In this document: piece by piece, positions 28,601 to 59,549 of the stretch | Layout of the letters: each line of letters begins with the position of its first letter | How positions within the stretch are numbered: the stretch's first letter is position 1 | Assembly: GCF_024199925.1 (NCBI RefSeq) | Contig: NZ_JANADR010000001.1 | Span: forward strand, 2,170,001 to 2,234,000 | Source of the DNA: Bradyrhizobium sp. CCGUVB1N3 | GTDB lineage: Bacteria; Pseudomonadota; Alphaproteobacteria; Rhizobiales; Xanthobacteraceae | Direction of reading: 5' to 3' | DNA length: 64,000 bases | Notes under the pieces: generated by a model | What the model was told of the DNA's origin: nothing | The model's database searches: none | The model's input: only the letters and a program-made list of their open reading frames with translations | Made by a program: the position numbers and the translations under genes

Positions 28601-28614
28601 TTGATGAAGATCAA
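28601..28614. promoter_or_regulatory. FixK/FNR-type box upstream of the DUF3300 operon
   Basis: TTGATGAAGATCAA matches TTGA-N6-TCAA exactly. Its centre is 64 bases upstream of the DUF3300 start codon, suitable for a class II activator site around -41.5. Confidence 0.85.
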
Positions 28615-28674
28615 AGAAAGCGGATGCCGGATTTGTTGCGGCGCGACAATTCTCTGCGGCTGAACCGTTTCGGC

Positions 28675-30567
28675 CTAGCGCGTGAGCGGCAGTTTGATCG
28701 TAAGCAGCGCGCCACCCGACAGCCTGTTCTCCGCGATGATCTGTCCGCGATGGGCCTCGATGATGGTCCTGGCGATGGCGAGCCCCATGCCCATGCCTTG
28801 CGGCTTGGTGGTGAAGAACGGATTGAAGACGTTCTTGAGATCGCCGGCGGCTATGCCGGGTCCGCTGTCGCCGATCCTGATTTCTGCGAAGGAGCCTGAC
28901 AGCGCCGTCGTAACAGTCACCTCCCGTACCTTCGCCTCCGCCTCGGAGATCGCGTCGATCGCATTGATGATCAGGTTGAGAATGACCTGCTGAAGCTGGA
29001 CCGGATCGCCCCTGACGCGCACCACGCTGGCGGCGGGTGTGAACTTCAAAGCGATCTTGTGCCGGTCGGTCACGGCGGTCAGAAATCCGATCGCCTCACC
29101 GACGGTTTCATTCAGATCGATATCGGCGATCTCGAACGGCGTCTTCTTCAGGACGCTGCGCAGCCTGCGGATCACCTCGCTCGCACGCTGATCGTCGCGC
29201 CTGATGTCGGCAAGGATCTCCCTGATCTCGTCGAGATTGGGGGACGCCCCCTTCAGCATGAGCTCGGCCGTCTCGGCGTTGGTGAGGATCGAGCCGAGCG
29301 GCTGATTCAATTCGTGCGCGATCGACGTCGTCAGCTCGCCGGCCGCCGCGTAGCGATTGACATGCGCGAGCTCCGCCAGGCGCTGCCGGGATTCGACCTC
29401 CGCGACGCGGCGCCGCCACCGCTCATGAAGCAGGCCGCTGATCAGGCCAGTCTGCAACAGGATCACCGCTGCGATCAGCGCCATCTGCCAGCGGTAGACC
29501 TCCCAGACGCTCGGCTCGCGAAACAGGACCTCACTGCCGGGAGGCAGATTGCTTTCGCTGATGCCCCAGCGCTGCATCTCACGCCAGTTATATCGCGGTG
29601 GCGCAAATTGGAGCGTTTCGATCTTGATGTTGCCCGGCTTCTCGCCACCGAGGATACGGATAGCAACGTCGACGGTCTTCCGGCTGGTTGCAGCCGTTGA
29701 ATGCATGGGGCCGCCGACGGTCTGGCCATCGAAGAAGGCATCCTGATAGGAAAAGATCGGCGCGTTGGCGACAGTCCGCAATCGGCGCAAGGCGACGTCG
29801 CCTTCATGCGTGACACCTGCACCGTCGACCGACATCAGGCCCCAGAACAAGACCGTATGCGGCGCAAGCGATGACGCGCGCTTGAGGATGTCCTGGAACG
29901 AAAGCCCCGAATACCAATCAAACGACACCCTGTTTTCGAACGGCTTCGCATCCTTCTTGATCTCCTCAAGCCAGAACTTCTCAACGGGAGAGGCCCCCAG
30001 CACGACGGCGATCGTCTGCGTGGCGGGCAGGACATGAAGGATGCTGGCAAAAATTGCCTGGAAGTCGTTATGAATCGAGATGACCGTGTCGTTGTCGGTC
30101 AGTCCCGTGCGATCGACCAGGCGCTGCTCGACTGCGGTCAGGACCATCGGTGTGTCGGGGAAAAGCTGCTTGCGATATTTCTGGGCGAATCTCGCCGCAG
30201 GCGCCCCGACGCTGACGACGATATCGGGCGGGCAGCTCTCATAGAGCGAGCGCAGATAATCGACGAAGGGTTCTTCCGGACCGGGATTGTTGAACCGCGC
30301 CGTCAGCAGCGTGTGCTCCTGAATGTCCAGCGGCCACGGCGCTTGGCGCTCGAGATCGGCCTTGATGGCCCGCGCGAATTCACTCCACGGACGAAATTCC
30401 CGTCCGAAAGAATGAAGCAGCAGCACCCGCTTGGGCTGGCCCTGATCGGCAGCGCTCGCCGGCCCGAGCCCGGTAAGGGCCAAGACCAATACGCACAGAC
30501 AGAGCCGTGCGGCCGCAGCCGGCCAGCCTCGTCTGACCACAGCAATGATCGGGATGCGCCCGCTCAT
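28675..30567 (-). CDS. Sensor histidine kinase with periplasmic ABC-substrate-binding-like domain
   Basis: This 630-residue membrane kinase has a signal/first span at about 12-36 (LCLCVLVLALTGLGPASAA). A periplasmic region to about 350 resembles ABC sugar/substrate-binding proteins (RVLLLHSFGREFRPWSEF, DTPMVLTAVEQ, TVLFWGLMSVDGAG). A second span follows (WQMALIAAVILLQTGLISGL). Then come HisKA with phospho-accepting His418 in SIAHELNQPLGS and the ATPase domain with LQQVILNLIINAIDAI, DSGPGIAAG and GMGMGLAIART. ATG 30567 is used because GAGGAAGAGG precedes it. No receiver is attached; candidate partners are the response regulators at 37177 and 37699. Ligand unknown. Confidence 0.9.
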   Translation of the reverse strand: MSGRIPIIAVVRRGWPAAAARLCLCVLVLALTGLGPASAADQGQPKRVLLLHSFGREFRPWSEFARAIKADLERQAPWPLDIQEHTLLTARFNNPGPEEPFVDYLRSLYESCPPDIVVSVGAPAARFAQKYRKQLFPDTPMVLTAVEQRLVDRTGLTDNDTVISIHNDFQAIFASILHVLPATQTIAVVLGASPVEKFWLEEIKKDAKPFENRVSFDWYSGLSFQDILKRASSLAPHTVLFWGLMSVDGAGVTHEGDVALRRLRTVANAPIFSYQDAFFDGQTVGGPMHSTAATSRKTVDVAIRILGGEKPGNIKIETLQFAPPRYNWREMQRWGISESNLPPGSEVLFREPSVWEVYRWQMALIAAVILLQTGLISGLLHERWRRRVAEVESRQRLAELAHVNRYAAAGELTTSIAHELNQPLGSILTNAETAELMLKGASPNLDEIREILADIRRDDQRASEVIRRLRSVLKKTPFEIADIDLNETVGEAIGFLTAVTDRHKIALKFTPAASVVRVRGDPVQLQQVILNLIINAIDAISEAEAKVREVTVTTALSGSFAEIRIGDSGPGIAAGDLKNVFNPFFTTKPQGMGMGLAIARTIIEAHRGQIIAENRLSGGALLTIKLPLTR

Positions 30568-30658
30568 CCTCTTCCTCAGCAGCTTCGATCGGCTGCACCT
30601 TGAGCCTATGTTACCGCAAAACGGGTAACGGCCAACAGCCTCGCCCAAAGCTCCCGCT

Positions 30659-31891
30659 TCAGTGCCCGCTCAACACCAGCGTCTTGATCGGCATCAAGAG
30701 CGCCTGGATGCGGAGCAGCAGCGCGTGCACGAGGCCGACCCCGTCGACCACGTGCAGCGCGATGGCGCGGCCGGTGCTGGTATGCTCGGCGGAAATCTCC
30801 TCGTGATTGCTGGTGTAGGCGTTGACGATGCAGCTACTCCCGGGCGTTACGCCTTCGAGCCCGCCCTTGTAGAGCGGCTCCAGGAAGACGAGGATCGTGC
30901 CGGGCTTTGCGGCGTTTTGCGCTTCGAGCAGTTGCTCGCCGGCACGGAACTGTCCTGCAGCAATGTAGTCCTGCACCGTCGTGACCACCATCGGGATAAT
31001 GACCCATGGCCTGGATATGCAGGTCGCTTCCGCCACCATGCCTTCCTTCATCACCCCCGCCTCGATCTGGCCGAAGCCGGCCTGAAGGACCTTCCTGCCG
31101 GCGCCCTCCGGAATGAGCACGCCCGCCGGCCGCATCAGCTGGTTGACGACATCACCTACGCGGATCAGGAACTGCTCGACCCGGCCGTCAACGCCGGCGC
31201 GGACGATGGTCTTGTCGAGATCGACCTGGGCCTGGTCGAGAGCAGCCTGGGCGCTCGCCTTCTGGGCCGGCAGAAGCGTCGACACCTGCAAGGCGGCCGA
31301 TTCCTTCACGGCGGTCGCCGCATCGATGCCGGCCTGCCGTTGATCGACCAACACCTGGAGCTTTTCGATGTCCCGCTGCGGCACGATACCGGGGTTGCGG
31401 CGCTGCAATTCGGACTTGGTGTCGAGCTCGTCCTTGGCCTGCTGCCAATTGGCCTTGGCTTCCTGGATCTGGGCTTCGGCCTTGACGACATCCGACTGCG
31501 CCGAGATCATTGCCGCATCGACCTCGGCGACCTTCCGCCTGGAGGTCTCATAGGCGGCCTGTTGCTTGGAACTGTCCAGCGTGAACAGCACGTCGCCCTT
31601 CTTCACCTCCTGGCTGAAGCCGACCTTGACCTCTGCAACCCGCCCCGAGCCTTCGGGCAGGATCGGCACGGTCCGGAAATAGAGCGTCGCCGAGTCGGTC
31701 GCTGGGTGGAAATAGAAGATCATGGTAATCAGCGACACCGTGAGCATCAGGCAACCCGTGATGCCCCATCGCAGCTCATACCAGACAGAGAAAAATGTGA
31801 TCTCCTTGCCGAAGCGCTTGCCCTGGACATAGCGGCGGTAGAGATAGTCCGGCACGATGGTGAGGAGCGAGCAGAACATAAGCTCAAACAT
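30659..31891 (-). CDS. HlyD family membrane-fusion/secretion protein
   Basis: This is a 410-residue periplasmic adaptor. One N-terminal span (about 35-58, WGITGCLMLTVSLITMIFYF) is followed by the lipoyl-like half AEVKVGFSQEVKKGDVLFTL, a long coiled coil (about 95-215, KVAEVDAAMISAQSDVVKAE), and the second half VDGRVEQFLIRVGDVVNQLM. The first helices before the span (LLTIVPDYLYRRYVQGKRFG) resemble the YibH/YiaV subgroup. It overlaps the small membrane-protein gene by eight bases, the same pairing seen for YiaV and YiaW. No transporter or outer-membrane channel gene is adjacent. Confidence 0.9.
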   Translation of the reverse strand: MFELMFCSLLTIVPDYLYRRYVQGKRFGKEITFFSVWYELRWGITGCLMLTVSLITMIFYFHPATDSATLYFRTVPILPEGSGRVAEVKVGFSQEVKKGDVLFTLDSSKQQAAYETSRRKVAEVDAAMISAQSDVVKAEAQIQEAKANWQQAKDELDTKSELQRRNPGIVPQRDIEKLQVLVDQRQAGIDAATAVKESAALQVSTLLPAQKASAQAALDQAQVDLDKTIVRAGVDGRVEQFLIRVGDVVNQLMRPAGVLIPEGAGRKVLQAGFGQIEAGVMKEGMVAEATCISRPWVIIPMVVTTVQDYIAAGQFRAGEQLLEAQNAAKPGTILVFLEPLYKGGLEGVTPGSSCIVNAYTSNHEEISAEHTSTGRAIALHVVDGVGLVHALLLRIQALLMPIKTLVLSGH

Positions 31892-32413: not shown

Positions 32414-32427
32414 TTGATTTGAATCAA
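32414..32427. promoter_or_regulatory. FixK/FNR-type box between divergent operons
   Basis: TTGATTTGAATCAA is an exact TTGA-N6-TCAA site. It lies 81 bases from the membrane protein/HlyD start on one side and 79 bases from the gene at 32500 on the other, so it could serve both directions. Confidence 0.85.
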
Positions 32428-34389: not shown

Positions 34390-34403
34390 TTGACCTAGAT
34401 CAA
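34390..34403. promoter_or_regulatory. FixK/FNR-type box upstream of the Gly-rich gene
   Basis: TTGACCTAGATCAA is an exact TTGA-N6-TCAA site centred 112 bases upstream of the start at 34284 and pointing into that gene. Confidence 0.8.
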
Positions 34404-34473: not shown

Positions 34474-34908
34474 CTATTTCAGCTTGATCGTGACTCCACC
34501 GACCGCAGCCGACACTTCGGCGCCGACTTTCGGCCCGCTGAGTTGCAGGATCACGCCGTTGGCGTTTTGCAACTGAACGGCGCCGGCGCCCGCCGCAACC
34601 GCGCCACCCGCTCCACCCGCCGCATATGAGCCCTCGATGGATGCTGGCCCCTTGAGATTGAGAGCTCGTCCGACAAATTTTGTCGTCGAGGCGCCAATCG
34701 TGAAACCGACACTCATACCCGACACCGTGAACGGATAGTGCTTGCCGCGCAAGGTCAGCACACCCTCGCCGCCGCCGACGCCGACGATCAGCCCGCCTTT
34801 GGTGAAGACGACTGCAACCTGTCCCGTCTCGGCGCGCGACGGCGTGCTGAAACCGGCAACGCCTGCGAGCAAGGCGACCAGAGCGGCGCGGATGGCAGTT
34901 TTTCTCAT
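34474..34908 (-). CDS. Secreted hypothetical protein, paralogue of the one at 25502
   Basis: This 144-residue protein has a signal peptide (AALVALLAGVAGFSTPSRA). The mature sequence TKGGLIVGVGGGEGVLTLRG, HYPFTVSGMSVGFTIGASTT and VILQLSGPKVGAEVSAAVGG aligns motif by motif with the protein at 25502. GGGGAAAG precedes ATG 34908; the open frame extends further upstream through the FixK box, so the shorter start is preferred. It has its own FixK box 88 bases upstream. Confidence 0.82.
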   Translation of the reverse strand: MRKTAIRAALVALLAGVAGFSTPSRAETGQVAVVFTKGGLIVGVGGGEGVLTLRGKHYPFTVSGMSVGFTIGASTTKFVGRALNLKGPASIEGSYAAGGAGGAVAAGAGAVQLQNANGVILQLSGPKVGAEVSAAVGGVTIKLK

Positions 34909-34989: not shown

Positions 34990-35003
34990 TTGATCCAAGT
35001 CAA
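34990..35003. promoter_or_regulatory. FixK/FNR-type box upstream of the secreted protein
   Basis: TTGATCCAAGTCAA is an exact TTGA-N6-TCAA site centred 88 bases from the start at 34908. It lies in the 180-base gap after the SulP gene. Confidence 0.82.
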
Positions 35004-35088: not shown

Positions 35089-36798
35089 TCAGAGCGCTCT
35101 TTGGGCAGCGTCGGGCTGCCCTTCGCCGAGAACGCTGTCGAGCGAGCGCAGCCACTGGCCGCTGTCGGTCTTCTCCGCCAGCCCTTCGGCCCGCAACAGG
35201 TCGCGCAGCTGCGCATGCGCGCCGACGATGCAAAAGGCGACGCGGCGCGTCGCGAGTTCATCATAGAGATCGCGCAGCATGCGCGCGCCGGCGAGATCGA
35301 TATAGGGCGATGCCGAGAGATCGCAGGCGACGAGCCGGATGTCCGGCGACCTCTTGAGCGCGATCAGGACCGTATCAAGGATCGTCTCGGCATTGATGTA
35401 GAGCAGCGAGGCTTCGGGCCGGAACGCGATGACTCCAACGAGGGGCTCGACGCCTTGGTGTCTGGCACTGTCGGAGTAACGGCCGCTGCCGGGCAGCCGG
35501 CCGAGGAACGCCACGTTCGGCTGCGAGGCGCGCGCCAGCAACAGGAAGATCGACGCAATCGACGCTAGCAGGACGCCTTGCAGGATGCCAAGCAGGAGCA
35601 CCGACACGAGCGCAATCGATGCGGCATAGAAGTCGATCCGGCTGACCTGCCACATCCGCAGCAGCGCGCGGACGTCCACCAGCTTGTAGACGGCGGCAAA
35701 GACGATGGCCGCGAGCACGGCCTTGGGCAGGTTGGTCAACAGCCCCGTGAAGAACAGGAGACACAGGCCAAGCGTCACCGAGCAGATGATCAACGCCAGC
35801 GGCGTCCGCGCGCCCGCGCTATCATTGACGGCGGATTGCGACAGGCCCCCGGCGACGGGATAGCCGTGGCCGAAGGCGGCGGCAAGGTTTGCCGCGCCCA
35901 GTCCCAGAAATTCCTGCCGCGCGTCGAGGCCATAGCCATGCTTGGCGGCAAAGCTGCGCGCCGCCGAGACGCCTTCGATGTAGGCCAGCAGCACGCATCC
36001 TGCCGCGAGCGGAAACAGATCGTCGAATTCCAGAAGACCAAATGTCGGCACCCCAATCGCGGGCAGTCCCTCGGGAATCTTGCCGGTCACGGGGACGCCA
36101 TGGGACGCAAAGCCGAGGAGTGTCGCCACCACGATCGACAGCGCCACGATGGTGATACCGACCGGCCGTCCCGGCAGAAAGCGTTCGCCAAGCAGGAGGA
36201 GCATGAGCGCGACCGCGCCAATCGCCAGAATGAGGAGATTGATCTCGCCGAGCTGGCCGGCAAGCTTGATGGCGCGGTCGAAAAAATTGTGGCCGCCGCC
36301 GGGAACGCCGAACAGGCTCGGCAACTGGCTCATGATGATGGTGAGCCCGGCTCCGGCCTTGAAGCCGACCAGGATGCTGTCGCTGACCAGGCGGACGAGA
36401 ACGCTGAGCTTGAACAGCCAGGCGATGAAGCACAAGACCGCCACCGCGAAGGCTGCGAGGCTTGCAATCTGCGCGTATCGCACCGCGTCGCCGCCAGCGA
36501 GCGCACCCACGGTGCTGGCGATCATCAGCGAGATCGCCGAGGTCGGGCCGACCGCGAGCTGCCGCGATGAGCCGAGCAACGCATAGCCGATGCCACCCAG
36601 CAGATAGCCGTAGACGCCGACCTGCGGCGGCAGGCCGGCCAGCGCGGCATAGGCGAGCGAGACCGGAATGGCGTAGGCGGCGAGCGTGACGCCGGCGATC
36701 GCGTCCGAAGCCAGCCACTCGCCTCGATAGGCGGCGAGCCAGCCCGACGGCGGGAACAACCGCATCCAGCTCACGCGCGGCTCGAGCGGTCCGATCAT
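35089..36798 (-). CDS. SulP family anion transporter with STAS domain
   Basis: This is a 569-residue SLC26/SulP transporter. The membrane part (about 1-420) opens LASDAIAGVTLAAYAIPVSL and has VGPTSAISLMIASTVGALAG, AYIEGVSAARSFAAKHGYGL and LGLGAANLAAAFGHGYPVAG. The cytoplasmic STAS domain (about 435-550) includes LVACDLSASPYIDLAGARML. Substrate may be sulfate, bicarbonate or a dicarboxylate. Its start overlaps the stop of a short upstream frame by four bases, and a FixK box lies further up. Confidence 0.94.
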   Translation of the reverse strand: MIGPLEPRVSWMRLFPPSGWLAAYRGEWLASDAIAGVTLAAYAIPVSLAYAALAGLPPQVGVYGYLLGGIGYALLGSSRQLAVGPTSAISLMIASTVGALAGGDAVRYAQIASLAAFAVAVLCFIAWLFKLSVLVRLVSDSILVGFKAGAGLTIIMSQLPSLFGVPGGGHNFFDRAIKLAGQLGEINLLILAIGAVALMLLLLGERFLPGRPVGITIVALSIVVATLLGFASHGVPVTGKIPEGLPAIGVPTFGLLEFDDLFPLAAGCVLLAYIEGVSAARSFAAKHGYGLDARQEFLGLGAANLAAAFGHGYPVAGGLSQSAVNDSAGARTPLALIICSVTLGLCLLFFTGLLTNLPKAVLAAIVFAAVYKLVDVRALLRMWQVSRIDFYAASIALVSVLLLGILQGVLLASIASIFLLLARASQPNVAFLGRLPGSGRYSDSARHQGVEPLVGVIAFRPEASLLYINAETILDTVLIALKRSPDIRLVACDLSASPYIDLAGARMLRDLYDELATRRVAFCIVGAHAQLRDLLRAEGLAEKTDSGQWLRSLDSVLGEGQPDAAQRAL

Positions 36799-36963: not shown

Positions 36964-36977
36964 TTGATCTGGATCAA
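36964..36977. promoter_or_regulatory. FixK/FNR-type box upstream of SulP
   Basis: TTGATCTGGATCAA is an exact TTGA-N6-TCAA site. It is 71 bases from the short frame at 36899 and 172 from the SulP start. The remainder of 36978-37176 shows no gene. Confidence 0.82.
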
Positions 36978-37176: not shown

Positions 37177-37605
37177 CTAGCGCCTGTCTTCGCGGGCGCG
37201 TTCGATCAGGTCCACGAGTGATTGCGCGGTAAAGGGCTTGGTCAGGTAGGCCACGCATCCCGATGCGACCGCGGCCGAGCGATTCCTCTCGCAGTCGTTT
37301 CCGGTAATATAGATCACGGGCGCCGAGACGCCCTTGTCGGCAATCCGCTCACGCAGGTTGATGCCTGATTGATCGTTCAGATTAATGTCGATGATGATGC
37401 ATATGGCGCTGTCGAACTCGGCATGATCGAGCAGCGCGGCTGCGGAATCGAACAGCAGCGTCGTGAAGCCGTGCTCGCGCAGAAGCCGCTTGATGCTGAT
37501 GCGCACCGACGCATCATCGTCGACAACGAACACCGATCTGCGGGTCGACACGAGATTCGGCCTTTTTGGCTGCGAGAAACCGTCGCTTGCAACGCTTGCT
37601 TGCAA
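37177..37605 (-). CDS. Single-domain response regulator
   Basis: This is a protein of up to 142 residues with only a receiver domain. VFVVDDDASVRISIKRLLRE gives the acidic pocket, Asp73 in IIIDINLNDQSG is the phosphorylation site, Thr in VIYITGND and Lys123 in AYLTKPF complete the set. No output domain, so it may be a phosphorelay shuttle or compete for a kinase. The TTG at 37605 lacks strong support; an internal GTG at residue 19 is an alternative. It sits beside the FixJ-like regulator on the same strand. Confidence 0.85.
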   Translation of the reverse strand: MQASVASDGFSQPKRPNLVSTRRSVFVVDDDASVRISIKRLLREHGFTTLLFDSAAALLDHAEFDSAICIIIDINLNDQSGINLRERIADKGVSAPVIYITGNDCERNRSAAVASGCVAYLTKPFTAQSLVDLIERAREDRR

Positions 37606-40252: not shown

Positions 40253-40266
40253 TTGATTTAGCTCAA
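40253..40266. promoter_or_regulatory. FixK/FNR-type box between phasin and hydrolase genes
   Basis: TTGATTTAGCTCAA is an exact TTGA-N6-TCAA site, 98 bases from the phasin start on the minus strand and 104 from the gene at 40364 on the plus strand. Confidence 0.82.
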
Positions 40267-48800: not shown

Positions 48801-51800
48801 GTGATCTTTTGCGTCGCTCGTTTGAAATCGCAAACCGTGTCGGCGATCTCACTTATGCGGGATACGGCTGTGCACAGCTGAACACCAATCTCCTCATGGC
48901 AGGCGATCCGCTCGTAGAGGCGCAAATCGAAGCGGAAAAGAGTCTCGAGTTTGCGCAGAAATTCCGGTTTGGTGTTGTCGTCGGTTGGATCACCGGGCAG
49001 CTCGCCCTGATCCGGACGTTGCGTGGCCTGACGACGAAATTTGGTACCTTTGACGACAGGAGGTTCGATGAACGTGCGTTCGAGCACCATCTGTCGATTC
49101 ACCCGGCATTGGAGCTTCCCGAATGCTGGTACTGGATACGAAAGCTGCAGGCACGCTTTCTTGCCGGCGACTATGCGGCTGCTGTCGATGCTTCGTCGAG
49201 GGCGCAACCGCTGCCCTGGCCATCGCTGGCACACCAGGAAACGGCGGAGTATCACTTCTACGGCGCCCTCGCGCGCGCCTCATCGTGGGACATCGCAGCG
49301 GCCGACGAGCGGCAGCAGCATTTGGAGCCCCTGGCCGCGCACCACCGACAGCTCGAGATCTGGGCAGCGAATTGCCCGGAGAATTTCGAGAACCGCGCCG
49401 CGCTCGTAGGGGCCGAGATCGCGCGGATCGAAGGCCGCGAGCTCGAGGCCGAGCGTCTATACGAGAAAGCGCTCCACTCGGCGCGCGCTAACGGCTTTGT
49501 TCATAACGAAGCGCTTGCGTACGAGCTGGCGGCGCGCTTCTACGCGGCGCGCGGGTTCGATGAGTTCGCGCGCGTGTATCTGACAAGCGCGCGCGATGGC
49601 TATCTCCGTTGGGGTGCCCTTGGCAAGGTGCGGCAGCTCGACGAGATGTATCCGAACCTTCGTAAGGAAGTGCCAGCGCCCGCTGCGACGGGCACGATCG
49701 GCACCCCAGTCGAACACCTCGACCTCGCGACCGTGATCAAGGTGTCGCAGTCCGTCTCGGGCGAGATCGTGCTGGATAAGCTAATCGACACACTCATACG
49801 CACCGCGATCACTCAGGCTGGCGCCGAGCGTGGCCTGTTGATTCTTTCGCGAGGGCTTGAGCAGCGAACCGCGGCAGAAGCCACGACCAGCGGCGACGCG
49901 GTCATCGTGCAACTGCGCGAGGAGACCGTAACTGCAGCAATGTTGCCGGAGTCGGTTCTACATTACGCCTTGCGCACGCAGGAGGGTGTGATCCTCGATG
50001 ATGCCGCGGCCCAGAACCCGTTCTCCGCAGATCCGTATATCCATCAGCACCGTGCTCGTTCGATTCTCTGCTTGCCTTTGCTCAACCGGGGCAAGCTCAT
50101 CGGGGCGCTCTATCTGGAGAACAACCTGACCCCTCGCGTCTTCGCGCCGGCCCGCATCGCGGCGCTGAAGTTGCTGGCCTCGCAAGCGGCGATCGCGCAG
50201 GAGAATAACCGTTTGTACCGAGATCTCGCTGAGCGCGAAGCGAAGATTCGGCGCCTGGTCGATGCCAATATCATCGGCATCGTCATCTGGGATTTCGACG
50301 GTCGGATCATCGAGGCCAATGACGCGTTTCTCCGCATCATCGGCTACGACCGAGACGCTCTCGTCTCGGGTCGCATACGCTGGACGGAGCTCACGCCGCC
50401 GGAATGGCTTGACCGCGATGAACAACGCTGGGTGCCCGAGTTGAAGAGGACCGGGAGTTCGCAGCCGTTCGAGAAGGAGTATTTCCGGAAAGACGGGAGC
50501 CGTGTTCCCGTGCTGATCGGCGCGGCGACTTTCCAGGAAGGCGGGAACCAGGGTGTCGCATTCGTGCTAAATTTGACGGAGCGCAAGCGCGCAGAGGAGC
50601 GCCTTCGGGTGCAGCACACGGTCGCGCAGATCTTGGCGGAGGCAGTCACGATCGAAGAGGCCACTCCGAGAATACTGCAGGCTATGGGCGAGTGTCTGGG
50701 ATGGGACGTGGGCGCGCTCTGGCGCGTGGACCGAGAGGCCGAGGCGCTGCGCTGTGTCGAGCTTTGGCATAGATCATCGATAGCCGTCCCGGAATTTGAA
50801 AGAGCTGGTTGGGAGTTCACCTTCGTTCCGGGGGTGGGACTACCGGGCCGGGTGTGGTCCAGCCTCAAGCCCGAATACGTTCCCGATGTCGTTCCTGATC
50901 CGAACTTTCCGCGCGGGCTCATTGCCCAACGCGAAGGACTGCACGCCGCCGTCGGCTTTCCTATCCTGCTCGGAGGGGACGTCTTTGGCGTGATCGAGTT
51001 TTTCAGTCGCGAGATCCGGCAGCCCGATCAGGAACTGCTCAATATGCTGGCTACCATCGGCAGCCAGATCGGTCAATTTATCGAGCGCAAGCGCGCCGAG
51101 ACGGAATTGCGCGAGTCGGAACAGAATTACCGCACGTTGTTCGAATCGATTGACGAGGGTTTTTGCACGATTGAAGTTTTGTTCGACCAGCACGAAAAGC
51201 CGCTCGACTATCGCTTCGTGCAAATCAGCCCGTCGTTTGAACGGCATACAGGAATCAAGAATGCCGCCGGCAGACGGATGCGCGAAATCGCGCCACAACA
51301 CGAAGAACATTGGTTCGAGATTTACGGCAGGATCGCCCTGACGGGTGAGCCGATGCGCTTTGAAAATGAAGCCAAACAACTCGGACGCTGGTATGACGTC
51401 TGCGCGTTCCGGGTCGAAGACCCCAAGCGCAGACGCGTCGGAATCCTTTTCAATGATATTACCGAGCGCAAGCAGGCGGAAGCCGAAGCACGAAACAGCG
51501 AGCGCCGCTATCGCGAAGTGCAGGCGGAGCTGGCGCACGCGAGCCGCGTCGCGACAATGGGGCAGCTCATGGCCTCGATTGCCCATGAAATCAGACAGCC
51601 GATTACTGCGACTGTCACCAACGCACAGGCCGGGTTGAACTGGCTCGCTGCTCAACCGCCGGATCTGGCGGAGGTCCGAAAGACGCTCGGTTGGATCGTC
51701 AGCGACGGCAGGCGAGCCGACGACGTCATCAGCCGGATCCGGGCCCTTATGAAGAAGACGCCGCCGCGAAAGGAGGACCTGGACATCAACGAGGCGGTGC

Positions 51801-52219
51801 TTGAGGTCATAGCCCTGACCCGTGCCGAAATGGTGAAGAACGGCGTCTCGGTACGGACGGAACTCGCGGAGCGATTGCCGCTCATTCAAGCGGATCGGGT
51901 CCAACTGCAACAAGTGGTCCTCAACTTGATCGTCAACGCCGTCGAAGCAATGAGCGGCGTCGGCGAAGGGGCGCGGGAGTTGCTGATCAGCACCGACAGA
52001 GATGGGTTGAATGGCGTGCTCGTCAGCCTGCGGGATTCGGGTCCGGGACTGGATCCGGCGAATCTCGAGCACATCTTCAACGCGTTCTACACGACCAAGT
52101 CCGGTGGTATGGGCATGGGATTATCAATTTGCCGTTCGATCGTCGAAGCGCAGGGGGGACGCATATGGGCGGGCGCGAATGAGCCTTGTGGCGCAGTCTT
52201 TCAATTCACCCTGCTCTAG
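45815..52219 (+). CDS. Giant hybrid Ser/Thr-kinase-like / AAA ATPase / GAF-PAS sensor histidine kinase
   Basis: This is a 2134-residue soluble protein. Order: Ser/Thr-kinase-like domain about 15-285; AAA/NACHT-like ATPase about 305-650 with Walker A GYSGIGKSS (336-344) and Walker B LFLDDLQWLD; a long TPR-like helical region to about 1290; GAF (1298-1470); PAS (1471-1590); GAF (1596-1755); PAS (1769-1890); HisKA with His1924 in SIAHEIRQPIT; ATPase to the end (QQVVLNLIVNAVEAM, DSGPGLDP, GMGMGLS). The kinase-like part has HKDLKPAH but the usual Lys is Arg45 (VLAVRP) and DFG is GFG (154-156), so it is probably not a working kinase. No span, no receiver. Follows gene debris; no operon partner. Confidence 0.93.
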   Translation: MNPSSKFGAGGDGGLRVLWQDSERVVCREWWLGADGRRKAVLAVRPAAEHPTPASLDRLGHEFGLKDELDGAWAVRPLDLRRDGRRTMLVLEDSGGEPLAALLGGPMEVGRFLRLAIGISSALGQLHQRGLAHKDLKPAHIMVNGAGSEVRLTGFGLASRLPRERQAPDPPESIAGTLAYMAPEQTGRMNRSIDSRSDLYALGVTLYQMLTGSLPFTASDPMEWVHCHVARKPVAPSERLENVPTALSQIIMKLLAKAAEERYQTAAGVESDLRHCLAEWERQGRIDPFALGDHDAPDRLLIPEKLYGRGREVETLLAAFDRIVESGSPELVLVSGYSGIGKSSVVHELHKVLVPRHGLFASGKFDQYRRDIPYMTLAQAFQSLVRPLLGKSDAELSGWRDALQEALGPNGRLMIDVVPELKLIIGEQPPVPELAAQDAQRRFQLVFRRLIGVFARPEHPLALFLDDLQWLDAATLDLLEDLLTRSDLQHLMLIGAYRNNEVTAAHPLMRKLDAIKSAGGKVAEITLAPLAREHLGQLMVDALRCEPERAAPLAQLVHEKTGGNPFFAVQFISSLAEEGMLAFDHDAASWSWDLDRIQSKQYTDNVVDLVVGKFTRLPIETQNALRRLACLGNIAESKTLSLVHGTSEEHVHAALQPAVRQEFVERLAGGYRFVHDRVQEAAYSLIPEALRSEAHLRIGRLLAAHIPPEKREEAIFDIVNHLNRGATLITAPEERERLAELNLIAGKRAKASTAYASALTYLAAGAALLPEDQWERRHELIFELELYRAECEFVTGALTEADERLAALAPRTATTVQRATVACLRVDLYMTIDQSDRAIAVGLDYLQHLGIDWSSHPTKEEAHREYERIWSQLGNRTIEELVELPLMSDPESLATVDVLIRIALPAFFTSSHLGTLATCRAVNLSLEHGHSDASCPAYELLAMLAGPYFGNYDAGFRFGRLGCELVEQPELKRFQGRTLEVFGFIVPWTRHVRTGRDLLRRSFEIANRVGDLTYAGYGCAQLNTNLLMAGDPLVEAQIEAEKSLEFAQKFRFGVVVGWITGQLALIRTLRGLTTKFGTFDDRRFDERAFEHHLSIHPALELPECWYWIRKLQARFLAGDYAAAVDASSRAQPLPWPSLAHQETAEYHFYGALARASSWDIAAADERQQHLEPLAAHHRQLEIWAANCPENFENRAALVGAEIARIEGRELEAERLYEKALHSARANGFVHNEALAYELAARFYAARGFDEFARVYLTSARDGYLRWGALGKVRQLDEMYPNLRKEVPAPAATGTIGTPVEHLDLATVIKVSQSVSGEIVLDKLIDTLIRTAITQAGAERGLLILSRGLEQRTAAEATTSGDAVIVQLREETVTAAMLPESVLHYALRTQEGVILDDAAAQNPFSADPYIHQHRARSILCLPLLNRGKLIGALYLENNLTPRVFAPARIAALKLLASQAAIAQENNRLYRDLAEREAKIRRLVDANIIGIVIWDFDGRIIEANDAFLRIIGYDRDALVSGRIRWTELTPPEWLDRDEQRWVPELKRTGSSQPFEKEYFRKDGSRVPVLIGAATFQEGGNQGVAFVLNLTERKRAEERLRVQHTVAQILAEAVTIEEATPRILQAMGECLGWDVGALWRVDREAEALRCVELWHRSSIAVPEFERAGWEFTFVPGVGLPGRVWSSLKPEYVPDVVPDPNFPRGLIAQREGLHAAVGFPILLGGDVFGVIEFFSREIRQPDQELLNMLATIGSQIGQFIERKRAETELRESEQNYRTLFESIDEGFCTIEVLFDQHEKPLDYRFVQISPSFERHTGIKNAAGRRMREIAPQHEEHWFEIYGRIALTGEPMRFENEAKQLGRWYDVCAFRVEDPKRRRVGILFNDITERKQAEAEARNSERRYREVQAELAHASRVATMGQLMASIAHEIRQPITATVTNAQAGLNWLAAQPPDLAEVRKTLGWIVSDGRRADDVISRIRALMKKTPPRKEDLDINEAVLEVIALTRAEMVKNGVSVRTELAERLPLIQADRVQLQQVVLNLIVNAVEAMSGVGEGARELLISTDRDGLNGVLVSLRDSGPGLDPANLEHIFNAFYTTKSGGMGMGLSICRSIVEAQGGRIWAGANEPCGAVFQFTLL

Positions 52220-52453: not shown

Positions 52454-53242
52454 TCAATCGATGATGTGATAGCCGCCGTCGATGTAGAGAACGCCGCCGG
52501 TCATCAGCTTGGCGCCGTCGAGCGCCAGGAACGCGGTGGCATTGCCGACGTCATCGATGCTGACGAGACTGCGTGAGGGCGCTTTCGACTGCGCCTTGTC
52601 CATGAGCTCGTCGAACTCCGGAATGCCTGATGCCGCACGCGTCGCCAGCGGTCCCGGCGAGATCGCGTGCACGCGGATGCCCTTCGGCCCGAGCTCCGCC
52701 GCGGCGTAGCGGACGGCCGCTTCCAGCGCCGCTTTCGCCACGCCCATGATGTTGTAGTTCTCCACGACCACCTGACTGCCATAATAGGTCATGGTAAACA
52801 TGGTGCCGCCGTTCTTCATCAGCGGCTCCGCCAGATGGGCCATGCGCAGGAACGACCAGCAGGAGACGTCCATGGTCTTGAGAAAGCCCTCGCGGCCGAC
52901 GTCGACCACGCGTCCGTGCAGCGCTTCCTTCGGCGAGAAGGCGATGGAATGCAGCAGGAAATCGAGTTGCCCCCATTCCTTCTGAATGCGCTCGAACACC
53001 TGCTCGATCTGGCCTTCGGCCATCACGTCCATCGGCATGAAGATCGGCGCCTCCAGCGCCTGCGCCAGCGGCTCGACATGCTTCTTTGCGCGATCATTCA
53101 GATAGGTCACGGCGAGCTCGGCGCCGAGCGCGCGAAACGCCCGTGCGCAGCCCCAGGCGATCGACTGATCGTTGGCGATGCCAACGACGAGGCCCTTCTT
53201 CCCCTTCAGCGCGACCTTCGTCTCCGGATACACGGGAATCAT
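52454..53242 (-). CDS. fabI: Enoyl-ACP reductase FabI
   Basis: This 262-residue enzyme does the NADH-dependent last step of fatty-acid elongation. Cofactor site: [20 protein letters not shown]; active-site segment [20 protein letters not shown] has the Tyr and Lys at the FabI Y-x6-K spacing region; the C-terminal [17 protein letters not shown] is typical. It is coupled to ackA by a four-base overlap (ATGA), which is unusual for a housekeeping fabI and suggests a second, condition-specific copy acting under FixK-type control. Confidence 0.93.
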
Positions 53243-54462
53243 GACACCCTCTCAGATCTGGCGTTTTGCGATTTTCCGTTCATCAGCAGCGCCAACGTGT
53301 GCTGCGCGATCATCAGCTCCTCGTCGGTCGGCACGACGTAGACGGGAACGAGGCTGTTCGGTCGCGAAACCAGCCGCGAGTGGCGCGCGTTCTCGGCAGC
53401 ATCGAGTGCGACGCCGAGCCAGCCGAGCTGCTCGGCGACGCGCGCACGAATGCCGGCTGAGTTCTCACCGATGCCGGCGGTAAAGACGAACGCGTCGAGG
53501 CCCTGCAAGGCGGCCGCGAGCATCCCGGCACTGAGGCCGATCCGGTAGACGAAGTAGTCGATCGCGAGCTTTGCGCGCGGGTCCGTGCTCGCTTCCAGCT
53601 CCCGCATGTCGTTGCTGACGCCGGACAGGCCCTTCAATCCGCAATCGCGGTAGAGGAAGTCCTGCACTTTCGCAGCCGACATGCCCTTCTCGGAGATCAG
53701 ATAAAGCACCACGCCGGGATCGAGCTGACCGGGACGCGTGCCCATTGGCAGGCCGTCCAGTGCCGTAAACCCCATGGTGCTCTCGACGCTCTGTCCGCCC
53801 TTCATGGCGCACATCGACGCGCCGCTGCCGAGATGCGCAACGATCACCCGCCGCTTGGCGATGTCGGGCGCGATCTGCGGCAAGGTTTTCGAAATGTATT
53901 CGTAGGAGAGGCCATGAAAGCCATAGCGCCGCACGCCTTCGGCATGGAGCTGATGCGGGATCGCGTAGTGATCGGCAAGCGGCCCATGGCTGCGGTGAAA
54001 CGCGGTGTCGAAGCAGGCGACCTGCGGAAGCGCGGGGAAATTCGCAAGGATCGAACGGATCGGCGCCAGGTTGTGCGGCTGGTGCAGCGGCGCCAGCGGG
54101 ACGAAGCGCTCCAGGCGCGCCACCACGCCGTGATCGATCAGGACAGGCCGCTCAAACTCCGGCCCGCCATGCACGACGCGATGCCCGACAGCCAGCGGAT
54201 GGACGCGAGCCTCGTTCCTTAGCCACTCGCCCGCGACCTCCATCGCGGCCGGTACGTCCGGGACCGCCTCGATCGGATAGGCGCGATCGGCCAGGGGATC
54301 GCCGCCCGCTCCGCTCGCCCGCAGGCGCGGCCGGCTGCCGATGCCATCCATCTGCCCCTTGATCTGTCGCCGCAGCGTGCCCTCGCTCTCGACCGAGTAG
54401 ACCTGGAACTTGACGCTCGACGAGCCGGCATTGATGACGAGGATCGTATCCATGACATTCAC
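53239..54462 (-). CDS. ackA: Acetate kinase
   Basis: This 407-residue enzyme makes ATP and acetate from acetyl phosphate. Blocks: [110 protein letters not shown] and [20 protein letters not shown]; catalytic residues appear intact. The GTG at 54462 overlaps the pta stop (GTGA); the ATG at 54453 (MDTILV) is an alternative start. Gives substrate-level ATP when respiration is limited. Confidence 0.96.
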
Positions 54463-55421
54463 GCAGCAACTGTCGGCGCCTTCTGGCGCCTTGCATAGGC
54501 ATAGAGTGCGGCCACGGCGCAGGACGCCATCCGGGCCCGCGGACTGTCGGCCCGCGACGTCAGAACGACCGGCACGCGCGCGCCGAGCACGATGCCGGCG
54601 CCATCCGCTTTGGCGAAGTAGGCGAGATTCTTCGCCAGCATGTTGCCGGCCTCGAGATCTGGCACGACCAGAATCTGTGCCCGGCCCGCCACCTCGGACT
54701 TGATGCCCTTGATCCTCGCGGCCTCGACATCGATGGCGTTGTCGAAGGCCAGCGGACCGTCGAGCAGGCCGCCGGTGATCTGGCCACGATCGGCCATCTT
54801 GCAGAGCGCGGCGGCCTCGATCGTGGACGGAATTTTCGACGTCACCGTCTCGACCGCCGACAGGATCGCCACCCTCGGCATCTTGCCGAAGCCGGCAATA
54901 TTGTAGAGGTCGATCGCGTTCTGGATGATGTCGCGCTTGGCGTCGAGATCGGGGAAGATGTTGATGGCCGCATCGGTGACGAAAATGGTCTCGGCATAGG
55001 CCGGCACGTCCATGATGAAGACGTGGCTGATGCGCCGGTCAGTGCGCAGGCCGCCGGTTTTGGCCGTGACGGCGCGCATCAGCTCGTCGGTATGCAGGCT
55101 ACCCTTCATCAGCAACTCGCCGCGGGCCTCGTGGATCAACTCGACGCCCTTGGCGGCTGCCGCGTCGCTGTGCGGCGCGTCGACGATCTCATACCCGGCG
55201 ATGTCGAGACCAAACCTGCTCGCAGTCTCCTTGATCTTCCGCTCCGGACCGACGAGCACGGGCCGGATGATACCGGCACTCGCGCTGTCGACAGCGCCGC
55301 GCAGCGATGTCTCGTCACAGGGGTGGACCACAATGGTCGGCGTGGGCGGCACGGCCTTGGCGGCTGCGATCAGGCGGTCGTATTTGCTGCCCGCATGCGT
55401 TTTCGTCGTGTCGGCCGACAT
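54459..55421 (-). CDS. pta: Phosphate acetyl/butyryltransferase
   Basis: This is a 320-residue single-domain PTA/PTB enzyme. [74 protein letters not shown] and [19 protein letters not shown] blocks are visible, with [20 protein letters not shown] near the end. Acts with ackA: acyl-CoA plus phosphate to acyl phosphate. The short form could favour acetyl- or butyryl-CoA; the ackA coupling favours acetyl. It follows the DUF3141 gene by 44 bases. Confidence 0.93.
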
Positions 55422-55465
55422 GGTGCTGCTCCCAATTCTGCCAATCTGCGCTACGACGCTTTTGG

Positions 55466-57715
55466 CTATGACGCTTTTGCCTTCGGATCGAAAGGGGCGA
55501 CGTTCGACTCGCCTTCCTCACCGACACCGAAGAGCTCGGCAACCTGCTTCAGGCGCTTTGCCCGCTCGCCGGTGATGTCCTCGCTCGCGGACAGCACCTC
55601 GCGCATCGCTGCGAAAGCCCCGCGCCGCTGATTGACGTCGTCAGGCAACATCTTCGGGATCGCAGCCAAGGCACGGTCCCGGTCGAGCAGCAACATGAAG
55701 AATTGCTCGCGAACCAGCATCTTGAACTCAGCCAGCGTCAACCGGGCTCCCGCATGGTCGCGCCGAACCTGGCGCAGCGCCTCGATGCTCCGCTCATCCA
55801 CCATGCCGCGCGCCGATCCGACGTAGAGCAGCGCACGAATGGCCGCCTCGCGAAGGCCGCCTTCGCCGATCTTCGACTTCAGCTCGGCGATCCGCTTCTC
55901 CAGCATCGCTCGGTGTTCGGCCGTCATCTCCCGCCGGCCGGATGGCGCGGCGTTCGGATCCACTCCGACCGCAGCCTGCAAGGCGGGCGAGCCATAGACG
56001 TTGAGGAAGATGGCCTCGCTCAGCGCCTCCTGCGAATCCCGCCAGCTATCCAGCGCGTGAACGATCTGCTTGGACATCTGTTCCTGGAATGCCAGGAACG
56101 GATTGTCGTTCGAGACCGGCTTGCGCTTGTCCTCGACCGCGTCAGCGGCTGATTTCACCGCCGACATCCATGGATTCTGACTGCTGAAGGCTTCATATTG
56201 CAGTCGCAGCGGGTGCATGTTGCGCGCCAGCTCCGCCATTTGCGGGGTCACCATGCCCTTGATCCAGGGCTGAACGTACCTTTGATAGGCCGCGAGATTG
56301 AGTTCCGAGACGCGCTTGGCGGCGGCAAACCGGCGCTCGTCCTCCGGCGAGTTGCCACCCATGGCGCGGATATCGTCGAGCGTCCGCGCCTCGCAGCGCA
56401 TGATCCATTGGCCGGTCGCGAGATCGGCATTGACGGTATCGGAACCCCTCGCCTCGAAGGTTGCTTCATAGAGCCCGGGTGGCAGCACGTCGATGAGGTC
56501 GATATTGCTCGAGAATTCGGCGTGCTCCTTCTTGGCGACGCCGCCTGACACGAAGATGCCGAGATGGCCGATACTTTCGTGCACGGTATAGACGACCGTC
56601 TGCCCATAGGCCCTGATCTCATCGACGTCGGCATAGCATTCGAAGATCCAGTCCAATGCCTGCTGCGGCGGGGTGATGTTGTCGCCCTTGGAGCAGAACA
56701 CCACGATCGGCGAGCGGATGTTGCGCAGATCCACCTTCTGGCCGTCAGACATCTCGATCTTGCCGGCCGCGAGATTGTTGCCGACGAACAGCTCGTCGAC
56801 GATGAACTGGATCTCCTCGGCATTGAGGTTGACGTGCCCACCCCACCAGCGCTCGAATTCGAGGTAGCGATCGGCCTCGGTGTCGACCTTGGAGTAGACG
56901 TTATATTGCTTGCTCCAGAGCGTGTTCGAGGGATTCTGGTTCTCGAAGTTCTGCACCAGCCAGGCGCCATCGAACTTGCCGCCGCCGAGATCGCTCGCCA
57001 GCGCCGTGAGCCAGCTTCCGCCGAGCAGCCCGCCCGAATAGCGCATGGGATATTTGCCATGCACGCCTGCCCAATAAGCGAGCGGCGCGCCCGCGATGAT
57101 AAGCGGTCCGAAAAGTTCCGGCCGCAGCGAAGCCAGGATCATGACGGCCCATCCGGCCTGGCAGTTGCCGATCACGCAGGGCTTGCCGTCTGCCCCGGGA
57201 TGACGGCTGATGACCGTCTCGATGAATAGTGCTTCTGCGCGGGCGATGCGCTCGATGGTTTGTCCCGGCATCGGTTCCGGAAGGAAGCCGATGAAATAGC
57301 AGGGATGTCCCGCCTTCATCGCCACACCGATCTCGCTGTCGGCCTTGAAACCGCCGATGCCCGGCCCGTGGCCCGCACGGGGATCGACCACGACAAATGG
57401 CCGCCGCCTCATATCGATTTCGACGCCCCTGGGCGGAACGATGCGAACGAGCGCATAGTTGACCGGCTCGTCCAGCTTGCGGCCGTCCATGATCAATTCG
57501 GCGGCATATTGCAGAACGTGTGGCGCGGTCTGCGCGACATGTTCCCGGTATTGGTCACCGCGCTGACGCATGATGTCCAGGAACAGGACGCTGCGCTGGC
57601 CCGCATCCACCAGATATTCGACGGCCGACGCAACCAGACCAGACATGGGACCGCCGGGGAGTTGTGGTTTGTCCAGTTGTGATTTGTCCAGTTGCTGTGC
57701 TTTGTCCATGGACAT
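55466..57715 (-). CDS. DUF3141 protein, PHA synthase-like alpha/beta hydrolase
   Basis: This is a 749-residue protein. The N-terminal part has VASAVEYLVDAGQRSVLFLD and PFVVVDPRAGHGPGIGGFK. The lipase-like box has Cys as nucleophile, CVIGNCQAGWAVMILASLRP, as in PhaC synthases. IVVFCSKGDNITPPQQALDW holds the acid and VHESIGHLGIFVSGGVAKKE the His. A long helical C-terminal half (about 480-749) is extra. ATG 57715 with GAGG ahead is chosen over TTG 57748. It heads the DUF3141-pta-ackA-fabI operon, with a FixK box 62 bases upstream. PHA polymerisation or depolymerisation is a guess from the fold. Confidence 0.9.
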   Translation of the reverse strand: MSMDKAQQLDKSQLDKPQLPGGPMSGLVASAVEYLVDAGQRSVLFLDIMRQRGDQYREHVAQTAPHVLQYAAELIMDGRKLDEPVNYALVRIVPPRGVEIDMRRRPFVVVDPRAGHGPGIGGFKADSEIGVAMKAGHPCYFIGFLPEPMPGQTIERIARAEALFIETVISRHPGADGKPCVIGNCQAGWAVMILASLRPELFGPLIIAGAPLAYWAGVHGKYPMRYSGGLLGGSWLTALASDLGGGKFDGAWLVQNFENQNPSNTLWSKQYNVYSKVDTEADRYLEFERWWGGHVNLNAEEIQFIVDELFVGNNLAAGKIEMSDGQKVDLRNIRSPIVVFCSKGDNITPPQQALDWIFECYADVDEIRAYGQTVVYTVHESIGHLGIFVSGGVAKKEHAEFSSNIDLIDVLPPGLYEATFEARGSDTVNADLATGQWIMRCEARTLDDIRAMGGNSPEDERRFAAAKRVSELNLAAYQRYVQPWIKGMVTPQMAELARNMHPLRLQYEAFSSQNPWMSAVKSAADAVEDKRKPVSNDNPFLAFQEQMSKQIVHALDSWRDSQEALSEAIFLNVYGSPALQAAVGVDPNAAPSGRREMTAEHRAMLEKRIAELKSKIGEGGLREAAIRALLYVGSARGMVDERSIEALRQVRRDHAGARLTLAEFKMLVREQFFMLLLDRDRALAAIPKMLPDDVNQRRGAFAAMREVLSASEDITGERAKRLKQVAELFGVGEEGESNVAPFDPKAKAS

Positions 57716-57770: not shown

Positions 57771-57784
57771 TTGATCTAGGTCAA
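57771..57784. promoter_or_regulatory. FixK/FNR-type box upstream of the DUF3141-pta-ackA-fabI operon
   Basis: TTGATCTAGGTCAA is an exact TTGA-N6-TCAA site, 62 bases from the DUF3141 start on the minus strand and 84 from the GNAT start on the plus strand. Confidence 0.87.
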
Positions 57785-58383: not shown

Positions 58384-58386
58384 GCC

Positions 58387-59475
58387 TCAGCCGCTCGTCG
58401 CTTTTTCCACCGGCGCGCCGCTGTCGATGCGGATCCACGCTGCGGCGAGCTCCCAGGCCACCGACAGAATGATCGGCCCGATGAAAAGGCCGATGATCCC
58501 GTGCGCGAGCGTTCCTCCGATCACACCGATCAGGATCACGAGCGTTGGCGTGGTGAGGCCCCGCCCCATCACAAGCGGCTTCAGGATGTTGTCGAGGAAG
58601 CCGACAAGGACGAGGAACACCGTCAGGAGCAGCGCCGTCGTCACGTCCTTGTCCATCCAGATCCAGATGATCACGGGCAGCAGGACGATCAGGGGGCCGA
58701 TCTGCACGATCGACAGCAGCAGGACGACGAAAGCCAGCAGGCCCGCGCTTGGAATATCGGCCAGCTTGAAACCGATGCCGGCCAGCAAGGCCTGAATGAT
58801 CGCGACGCCGATCACGCCCTGCGCCACTGCCCGGATCGTCGCACCCGCCAATTCCAGAAAATGCTCGCTCTGCTCCGGCACGATCCGGGTCAGGAAACCA
58901 CGGGTCACCGCCACGAGCTGCGGTCCGAAAGGAAGGAGAATGCCGGAGACGAGGACGGAGACCAGGAACTGCAGCGTGCCGAGACCGGCATCACCTGCAA
59001 GCGACAGCAGCGGTCCCGCGAGCGGCTTCAGATAGGGCGCAATCTCGCGCAATACCGCCCGTACGTTGGTGTAGGCCTGATTCCAGAGTTCGTAGAGCTG
59101 TGGGCCGATCAATGGCCAGCTCTTGACGCGTTCCGGCGCCGGCTGAAGCACGACATCACCGGTGCCGAGCTGGCTTGCCAGATCCTTCACGCCCTCCACC
59201 GCGCTTACGCCAAGCCAGGCTGCCGGACCGACAACGATACCGAGCGCGATGAGCGTCAGGATCGCCGCTGCCGTCCTCGGACGCCCGCCGAGCATTTTGG
59301 CGAGCCAGCTGAAGGCCGGATAGAACGCGACCGCTAGCACCGCGCTCCAGGTCAGGATCGACACGAAGGGACGGATGATGACGAACGTCCAGATGATCAG
59401 CAAAGCGAGCAAGCCAAGCCGGATCAGGAGCTGGATGATGTCTTCGGCGGACAAGAGCTGACGAAGCGTCTTCAC
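58387..59475 (-). CDS. AI-2E family transporter (PerM/YdiK type)
   Basis: This is a 362-residue membrane protein with about eight spans in the 2-3-1-2 arrangement of the family. ILTWSAVLAVAFYPAFSWLA, AAILTLIALGIVVGPAAWLG, GVIGVAIIQALLAGIGFKLA, LLSIVQIGPLIVLLPVIIWI and the C-terminal GMI-like GRGLTTPTLVILIGVIGGTL are visible. Members export AI-2 or act as Na+/H+ antiporters; which applies is unknown. A FixK box lies 67 bases upstream. Confidence 0.92.
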   Translation of the reverse strand: MKTLRQLLSAEDIIQLLIRLGLLALLIIWTFVIIRPFVSILTWSAVLAVAFYPAFSWLAKMLGGRPRTAAAILTLIALGIVVGPAAWLGVSAVEGVKDLASQLGTGDVVLQPAPERVKSWPLIGPQLYELWNQAYTNVRAVLREIAPYLKPLAGPLLSLAGDAGLGTLQFLVSVLVSGILLPFGPQLVAVTRGFLTRIVPEQSEHFLELAGATIRAVAQGVIGVAIIQALLAGIGFKLADIPSAGLLAFVVLLLSIVQIGPLIVLLPVIIWIWMDKDVTTALLLTVFLVLVGFLDNILKPLVMGRGLTTPTLVILIGVIGGTLAHGIIGLFIGPIILSVAWELAAAWIRIDSGAPVEKATSG

Positions 59476-59535
59476 GGCGGACTCTCATCTCAGGGCAGCT
59501 TTTGCAAAAATATCGATCGGCCTCGCGCGGCCCTG

Positions 59536-59549
59536 TTGACCCAGATCAA
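59536..59549. promoter_or_regulatory. FixK/FNR-type box upstream of the AI-2E transporter
   Basis: TTGACCCAGATCAA is an exact TTGA-N6-TCAA site centred 67 bases before the start at 59475. Confidence 0.85.

Follow-up and report, generated by a model that had tools for sequence, protein, structure and literature searches.

A conserved cluster of FixK-type boxes around a FixK2 paralogue in Bradyrhizobium sp. CCGUVB1N3

The closest described counterpart of the locus considered here is the FixLJ-FixK2 regulon of Bradyrhizobium diazoefficiens, whose targets are themselves clustered, as in bll4634-blr4655 (PMC9104804, Table 2). FixK2 carries a redox-sensitive cysteine, and its C183S variant has been described as resisting oxidation and showing higher activity in vitro (PMC9104804). 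Several FixK copies coexist in Bradyrhizobium, with five in strain BTAi1 (PMC4999443). This study concerns a 64,000-nucleotide stretch of the 10.44-Mb genome of Bradyrhizobium sp. CCGUVB1N3 (G000:C1:2170001-2234000, hereafter the window), in which exact matches to TTGA-N6-TCAA, the pattern taken here as the FixK/FNR box, surround a gene encoding a FixK2 paralogue (the island FixK). The stretch is probably a low-oxygen regulon island conserved in Bradyrhizobium and related bacteria, activated by FixK-family proteins, the low-oxygen role being suggested by the type of box and by published work on B. diazoefficiens. Judged by its sequence, it is a FixK-box regulon of a known type, and what is new is a local regulator predicted to differ in redox behaviour.

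Density and conservation of the boxes

The window contains ten exact boxes, comprising the nine reported in a first-pass annotation of this DNA, all of which proved to be exact matches, and one at 30684 that had been overlooked. Shuffled versions of the window (100 shuffles) held a mean of 0.49 exact boxes and a maximum of 3. The whole genome contains 204 exact boxes, compared with 41 matches to the reversed pattern, and all 204 could be placed (198 on C1, 4 on C2 and 2 on C3). Both the top 31-kb count (10 boxes) and the top 13-kb count (8 boxes) of the genome fall in this window, and uniform placement of the 198 C1 boxes over 20,000 rounds, a null that takes no account of base composition or gene structure, gave at most 8 boxes per 31 kb and 7 per 13 kb. 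The annotation had proposed a genome-wide scan and had named equal density elsewhere as the result that would speak against an island; the scan found the window to be the densest region, but not alone, with one locus coming near it at C1:9198405-9211018 (L180; 7 boxes in 12.6 kb). This runner-up includes a gene for an FNR-type protein with a cluster of cysteines at its N-terminus, and it looks like a second island.

Conservation was assessed in 35-36 kb around the island fixK gene from 20 of 78 other genomes of the genus, selected from those in which a long contig carries an island fixK, so that fixK synteny in this set is partly a matter of choice. These 20 islands (701,008 bases) hold 135 boxes and no match to the reversed pattern. 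Boxes were scored within 300 bp upstream of each orthologue, excluding orthologues with less than 55% identity, less than 60% coverage or less than 250 bp of upstream DNA. The box at 32414..32427 lies between the minus-strand DUF3302-like and HlyD-like genes and the plus-strand 151-amino-acid (aa) and PPK2 genes, and upstream boxes were present in all scored relatives for both the 151-aa gene (17/17) and the DUF3302-like gene (16/16). The same was true of CoA-transferase A (10/10; box at 41544..41557), of DUF3141 (10/10) and GNAT (6/6), which diverge from the box at 57771..57784, and of DUF3300 (3/3; box at 28601..28614, before the DUF3300-DUF2950 genes), and the AI-2E gene (box at 59536..59549) had an upstream box in 15 of 16. 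The EipA-like/SulP interval (34990..35003 in the window) and the SulP/FixJ-like interval (36964..36977, upstream of SulP) each hold a box in 18 of 18 scored relatives, this scoring having covered 18 of the 20 islands; the other two, G035 and G045, yielded no SulP. Alignments of the upstream regions show the box as a peak of conservation. A wider set of 80 DUF3141 loci contains 359 boxes against 4 reversed matches, and in 77 of them, including loci from Sinorhizobium/Ensifer, Bosea, a Xanthobacteraceae metagenome-assembled genome (MAG) and a Nitrobacter MAG, a box lies within 300 bp upstream of DUF3141 or just inside its aligned start; the three loci without one are L072, L074 and L076. A chance origin of the cluster is refuted by this conservation, and the window shuffles and genome placements are also contrary to it; this explanation was rejected as practically untenable.

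Most boxes lie 55-105 bp from a start codon, roughly the 60-110 bases first proposed, with a longer distance of 165 bp at SulP; the start codons behind these values are our own calls. The tenth box (30684..30697) sits within the 3' end of the HlyD-like gene, 116 bp before the gene for a 630-aa kinase, and was conserved in none of the four relatives scored for that kinase. It is thus not supported as a functional site and is probably non-functional.

The proposal of a single 31-kb island needs revision in one respect. The region is the densest conserved FixK/FNR-box island of the genome and carries storage and energy genes; it consists of two blocks, however, because the 43.4-52.4 kb segment of the window lacks exact boxes, and the three genes in it, which encode VIT, Gcw_chp and a 2134-aa hybrid kinase (Pkinase, AAA, GAF, PAS, HisKA and HATPase domains), have no orthologue in the fetched islands of the 20 relatives. 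These three plus-strand genes (43845..52219) look like a lineage-specific insert that splits the island. Gene content also varies outside the insert: the genes beside the SulP-interval boxes in G046 encode a decarboxylase, two Asp-Al exchanger-type permeases, DUF1275 and alpha/beta hydrolases. Across these islands, genes have been gained and lost with the boxes retained.

The island FixK and its promoter

The genome contains 27 matches to the CRP-type helix-turn-helix (HTH) domain, 20 of them above the cut-off. FixL, FixJ, FixN, FixP and FixG, all passing NCBIfam cut-offs, are encoded at C1:2978000-2988500, and the canonical FixK2, which has the redox cysteine, lies at C1:2987931 beside FixL, FixJ, FixN and FixP. 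Also encoded in this genome are a further FixK paralogue and a protein of the FNR type that bears a cysteine cluster. The island FixK (38653..39336, plus strand) is separate from FixK2 and does not occupy a position next to fixLJ or fixNOQP. It consists of a cNMP-like domain and a CRP-type HTH, is 70% identical to the FixK2 of this genome and has FixK2 (4i2o) as its closest solved structure (286 bits, the next best reaching 85), which bears out the earlier identification of a FixK-like regulator. It retains the DNA-reading helix of FixK2 and contains no cysteine, and hence no FNR-type N-terminal cysteine cluster. Its score against the NCBIfam FixK model NF050806 (225.5 of 300 bits) is a failing one; this model was built on Caulobacter and does not cover Bradyrhizobium, because the FixK2 of this genome fails it too (233.1 bits).

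The position of Cys183 in FixK2 is occupied by Ser in all 30 island FixK orthologues. Cys183 itself is present in 17 of 17 members of the FixK2 clade (support 100/100) and in the FixK2-type proteins of L218 and L229. Ser is also found in four other paralogues of the genus, in the second FixK paralogue of this genome, in its FNR-type protein and in Sinorhizobium-side homologues, one of which has Thr. The idea that the island FixK had lost a cysteine was dropped in view of the Ser or Thr in these FNR-type and Sinorhizobium-side homologues, and FixK2 may rather have gained it. By analogy with the published C183S variant, the Ser at the redox-cysteine position should render the island FixK resistant to oxidation.

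Alignment of the regions upstream of fixK brought out TTGGTACAATG-N2-CCTnnGGACAATGG, a tandem repeat whose period is ~15 bp. In the window it lies at 38513..38539 (plus strand), between the island fixK and the FixJ-like gene, and is a candidate operator of the former. When up to 3 mismatches are allowed, there is a single copy in this genome and there are 42 in 38 of 79 genomes of the genus, with no matches to the reversed control in either case; two of the 42 matches overlap (G052). Thirty-nine of the 42 sit 108-143 bp upstream of a FixK-like gene. The repeat was present at 35 of 39 island-type fixK genes (full-length matches of at least 81%) compared with 3 of the 38 FixK-like rows that follow (67-81%, some partial), in a comparison of 77 rows taken apart from the listed FixK2-type rows, weaker rows and unlisted rows. 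Promoter scoring covered 27 of 30 loci and found 23 promoters with both units under its two-unit rule; among the other four, the second unit was weak in one, and in the remaining three the script had taken the second unit as its anchor. The second FixK paralogue of this genome has neither the repeat nor a FixJ-like gene in its 15-kb stretch. The overlapping matches in G052 (G052:C1:3854603-3854644) form three units before another FixK paralogue, and repeat copies away from FixK genes (L274, ~1501-1584; L061, ~4228-4301) lie within ~85 bp of a FixK box.

The FixJ-like gene (37699..38313, minus strand, start possibly 38337) had been annotated as such, and both Pfam and NCBIfam agree at the level of the family. 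The product is not FixJ itself: it scores 177.6 bits against the 255-bit cut-off of the NCBIfam FixJ equivalog, compared with 345.7 for the real FixJ of this genome, to which it is 41% identical, and the possibility that it is a direct copy of FixJ was rejected on these grounds. Its closest paralogue in the genome is encoded at C1:5624624 (61%), and it retains the receiver aspartates and lysine. The FixJ-like protein could plausibly bind the tandem repeat before the island fixK.

Published work on B. diazoefficiens bears on this promoter. The gene bll3466 is, by its number, the probable orthologue of the island fixK, and blr3456-3459, blr3464, bll3466 and blr3474 very likely represent the same island, since this numbering matches the island gene order in the relatives. 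The bll3466 gene encodes a FixK-like protein and is activated by FixK2 (PMC9104804), its transcript rises in microoxia (PMC6515984), and its expression depends on RegR, which binds its promoter (PMC4064962). RegR, instead of the FixJ-like protein, might therefore be the factor that binds the tandem repeat, although we regard this as unlikely. RegR binds a bll3466 promoter fragment from -160 to +58 and is needed for expression (PMC4064962), and this fragment would span the repeat if its position were the same as here. However, the repeat occurs only once in the genome within 3 mismatches, while RegR controls many genes, and the RegR boxes proposed at -78 and -88 look different by eye (PMC4064962). 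In addition, 28 of the 30 loci examined carry the FixJ-like gene next to the repeat (L261 and L274 have neither gene), as would be expected of a divergent local regulator, an arrangement for which synteny alone also suffices. The literature accessible to this study, with subscription papers outside its scope, yielded no description of this island as one entity, nor any mention of the repeat or of a Ser where FixK2 has Cys183, and no report of a regulon governed by Bll3466 was found there.

The boxes alone cannot identify their reader, because FixK and FnrN share conserved contact residues (PMC4999443). The local FixK is a candidate reader alongside FixK2, the other FixK paralogue and the FNR-type protein of the same genome; most likely it shares in activating the island with FixK2, and several observations weigh against this reading. 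Several regulators are able to read the same box (PMC4999443). Among 12 genomes checked for an island-type FixK, one (the Nitrobacter MAG) has it, and 8 of the 11 others keep the DUF3141 box. The Bll3466 protein was not detected under microoxia (PMC6515984), and Table 2 of PMC9104804, which covers the overlap of two mutant profiles only, contains none of these operons. The island fixK itself lacks a box although bll3466 is published as FixK2-dependent: no box was found at fixK (0/21), the FixJ-like gene (0/21) or the lone receiver gene (0/19), even with the looser pattern TTG[AC]N6[TG]CAA. Boxes within 300 bp were rare at the EipA-like (3/20), SulP (2/18) and phasin (1/7) genes and were not found at orthologues of a shortened hydrolase gene (0/8), and they occurred sporadically at genes that have none in the window (ion channel 6/20, AckA 2/12, Pta 1/10). 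The low counts for SulP and the EipA-like gene arise partly because the neighbours have changed, with other genes now adjoining those boxes.

It is quite possible, then, that FixK2 and/or the FNR-type protein read the boxes by themselves and that the island FixK is a modulator, for example through negative feedback on fixK2, whose location has no causal meaning. Both the DUF3141 boxes that persist without an island-type FixK and the failure to observe Bll3466 in microoxia favour this explanation, as does the role in negative feedback on fixK2 proposed earlier for bll3466 (PMC4064962). Against it stands the location of fixK within the box cluster in 20 islands, a weak point given that the islands were chosen for their fixK.

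Island genes and their putative role in storage-polymer use

Pfam was used to scan 30 proteins encoded between 25947 and 62943, and NCBIfam models were also applied. At the left end, the minus strand carries the DUF3300-DUF2950 genes (25947-28543), followed in the gene list by the 630-aa histidine kinase, the HlyD-like gene (30659-31891) and the DUF3302-like gene (31884-32318), the last of which is under the curated Pfam cut-off (19.9 of 32 bits). On the plus strand, PPK2 (32999-33799) passes the NCBIfam PPK2 model and is preceded by the familyless 151-aa gene (32500-32955). The targets listed in the first-pass annotation are therefore adjusted in that PPK2 is the second gene after its box and pta-ackA lies inside the DUF3141 operon. 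The 151-aa protein has no Pfam or NCBIfam match; 39 residues are invariant in 22 sequences, one of them a 39% relative from Bosea, and its structure model, of middling confidence (pLDDT 72), gave no match in PDB at E 0.001 or better. The box at 34390..34403 lies 105 bp from the start of a minus-strand gene (33841-34284), its likely target, which encodes a Gly-rich protein of 147 aa that begins with a signal-like sequence. The minus strand continues with the EipA-like gene (34474..34908; Pfam, under cut-off), the SulP transporter (35089..36798) and the lone receiver domain (37177..37533), the latter two identified with Pfam.

Beyond the island fixK, the gene list has an ion channel (Pfam/NCBIfam) and then the phasin (39814..40161, minus), which passes the NCBIfam phasin_2 model. 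The box at 40253..40266 separates the phasin from the shortened alpha/beta-hydrolase gene (40327-40936). Relatives start this hydrolase with MPFL-HGS ~80 bp past the box (307 aa in G046); in the window this start, at 40327, runs out of frame after a short distance, and what remains is a downstream frame of 190 aa. CoA-transferase A and B and a MaoC-like hydratase follow on the plus strand (41625..43398; Pfam, NCBIfam). To the right of the boxless insert, the minus-strand operon at 52454..57715 encodes DUF3141, a phosphotransacylase, an acetate/propionate-type kinase and a FabI-like reductase (Pfam, NCBIfam), and is followed by the GNAT gene (57862-58383, plus), the AI-2E family transporter (58387..59475, minus; Pfam) and, further along the gene list, a TonB receptor and NicO. 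In G046 the island also carries an Orn/Lys/Arg-type decarboxylase and Asp-Al exchanger-type permeases (L138:3707-7673, L138:10221-11975) that are absent from the island in the window and are perhaps a proton-motive decarboxylation pair. In B. diazoefficiens, blr3474 is an Arg/Lys/Orn decarboxylase (PMC8632152) and blr3464 is the phasin PhaP6 (PMC10888616).

DUF3141 fails the polyhydroxyalkanoate (PHA) synthase models (25.9 of 365 and 22.5 of 623 bits) and has no meaningful match among PDB sequences, and it has been grouped with a Cys-Asp-His PHA-synthase cluster (PMC11878206). Cys185, Asp345 and His384 are invariant in 19 sequences, GNCQA replaces GxCxG, and the closest named locus is in Bradyrhizobium iriomotense NBRC 102520 (94%). 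The MaoC-like protein resembles Rv0130, and the FabI-like protein passes the FabI model. Taken together, a fermentation of storage polymer to acid with a gain of ATP is a coherent, though unproven, reading of these enzymes. That they instead represent an ordinary acetate overflow route, alongside unrelated stress genes that share the box, has nearly even standing. The phosphotransacylase passes the PRK11890 model, a subfamily of phosphate acetyltransferases, and falls short of the TIGR02706 cut-off for phosphate butyryltransferase (305.3 of 410.5 bits), the kinase is of the acetate/propionate type according to NCBIfam, and blr3457 and blr3458 have been treated as Pta-Ack (PMC10888616). On the other hand, the closest PDB entry to the phosphotransacylase is a phosphate butyryltransferase (7vg9, 222.8 bits, compared with 58.6 for the best acetyltransferase), and its neighbours are the phasin, CoA-transferase, MaoC and DUF3141. 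The operon also responds to PhaR, a regulator of polyhydroxybutyrate (PHB): a phaR mutant shows strong induction of pta (blr3457) and ackA (blr3458), and blr3456-blr3459 are listed as a single operon with predicted PhaR sites and a value of 7.2 in both change columns (PMC10888616).

For the regulon island as a whole, we infer binding, activation and an oxygen response along the following lines. As oxygen falls, FixK-family proteins, namely FixK2 from the FixL-FixJ cascade and most likely also its island paralogue, would activate the promoters at most of the nine intergenic boxes. The products would suit a shortage of energy, with PPK2 serving polyphosphate use, the phasin, CoA-transferase, MaoC and DUF3141 serving granule and acyl-CoA handling, and the phosphotransacylase and kinase yielding ATP from acyl-phosphate. 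Expression of the island fixK would be driven from the tandem repeat in its own promoter, to which the neighbouring FixJ-like regulator plausibly binds. A more specific scenario, which we consider improbable, is that this orphan FixJ-like protein fires the FixK free of the redox cysteine from a dedicated operator, and that this FixK reads FixK2 boxes after oxidation has silenced FixK2, keeping storage-polymer fermentation on. If so, conversion of PHB to short-chain acid with a gain of ATP could be maintained, for example in nodules, when cells alternate between low oxygen and bursts of oxidation. More generally, one FixK copy is here tied to one neighbourhood, without the braking cysteine of FixK2 and with its own promoter element, so that a division of labour among FixK copies becomes testable. 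An uncharacterised operon (DUF3141, phosphotransacylase, kinase and FabI) is linked to FixK/FNR boxes across several genera, and a concrete hypothesis is offered in which stored polymer would supply ATP without oxygen.

Comparison with known systems

The DosR dormancy regulon of Mycobacterium tuberculosis likewise serves survival at low oxygen, through a gene set in which one regulator has many sites; it differs in being controlled by a response regulator and in having a different box. The lxa locus of Burkholderia cenocepacia is similar in that ~50 clustered genes are raised in low oxygen (PMC9733578). However, lxa encodes six universal stress proteins, whereas no Usp domain was found among the 30 island proteins scanned. 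The closest likeness is to the FixLJ-FixK2 regulon of B. diazoefficiens, with which the island shares the box, the kind of activator, clustered targets, the predicted low-oxygen response and the targeting of PHB genes. What sets the island apart from that regulon is its own FixK, in which position 183 is Ser, together with a FixJ-family regulator distinct from FixJ and a promoter with a tandem repeat.

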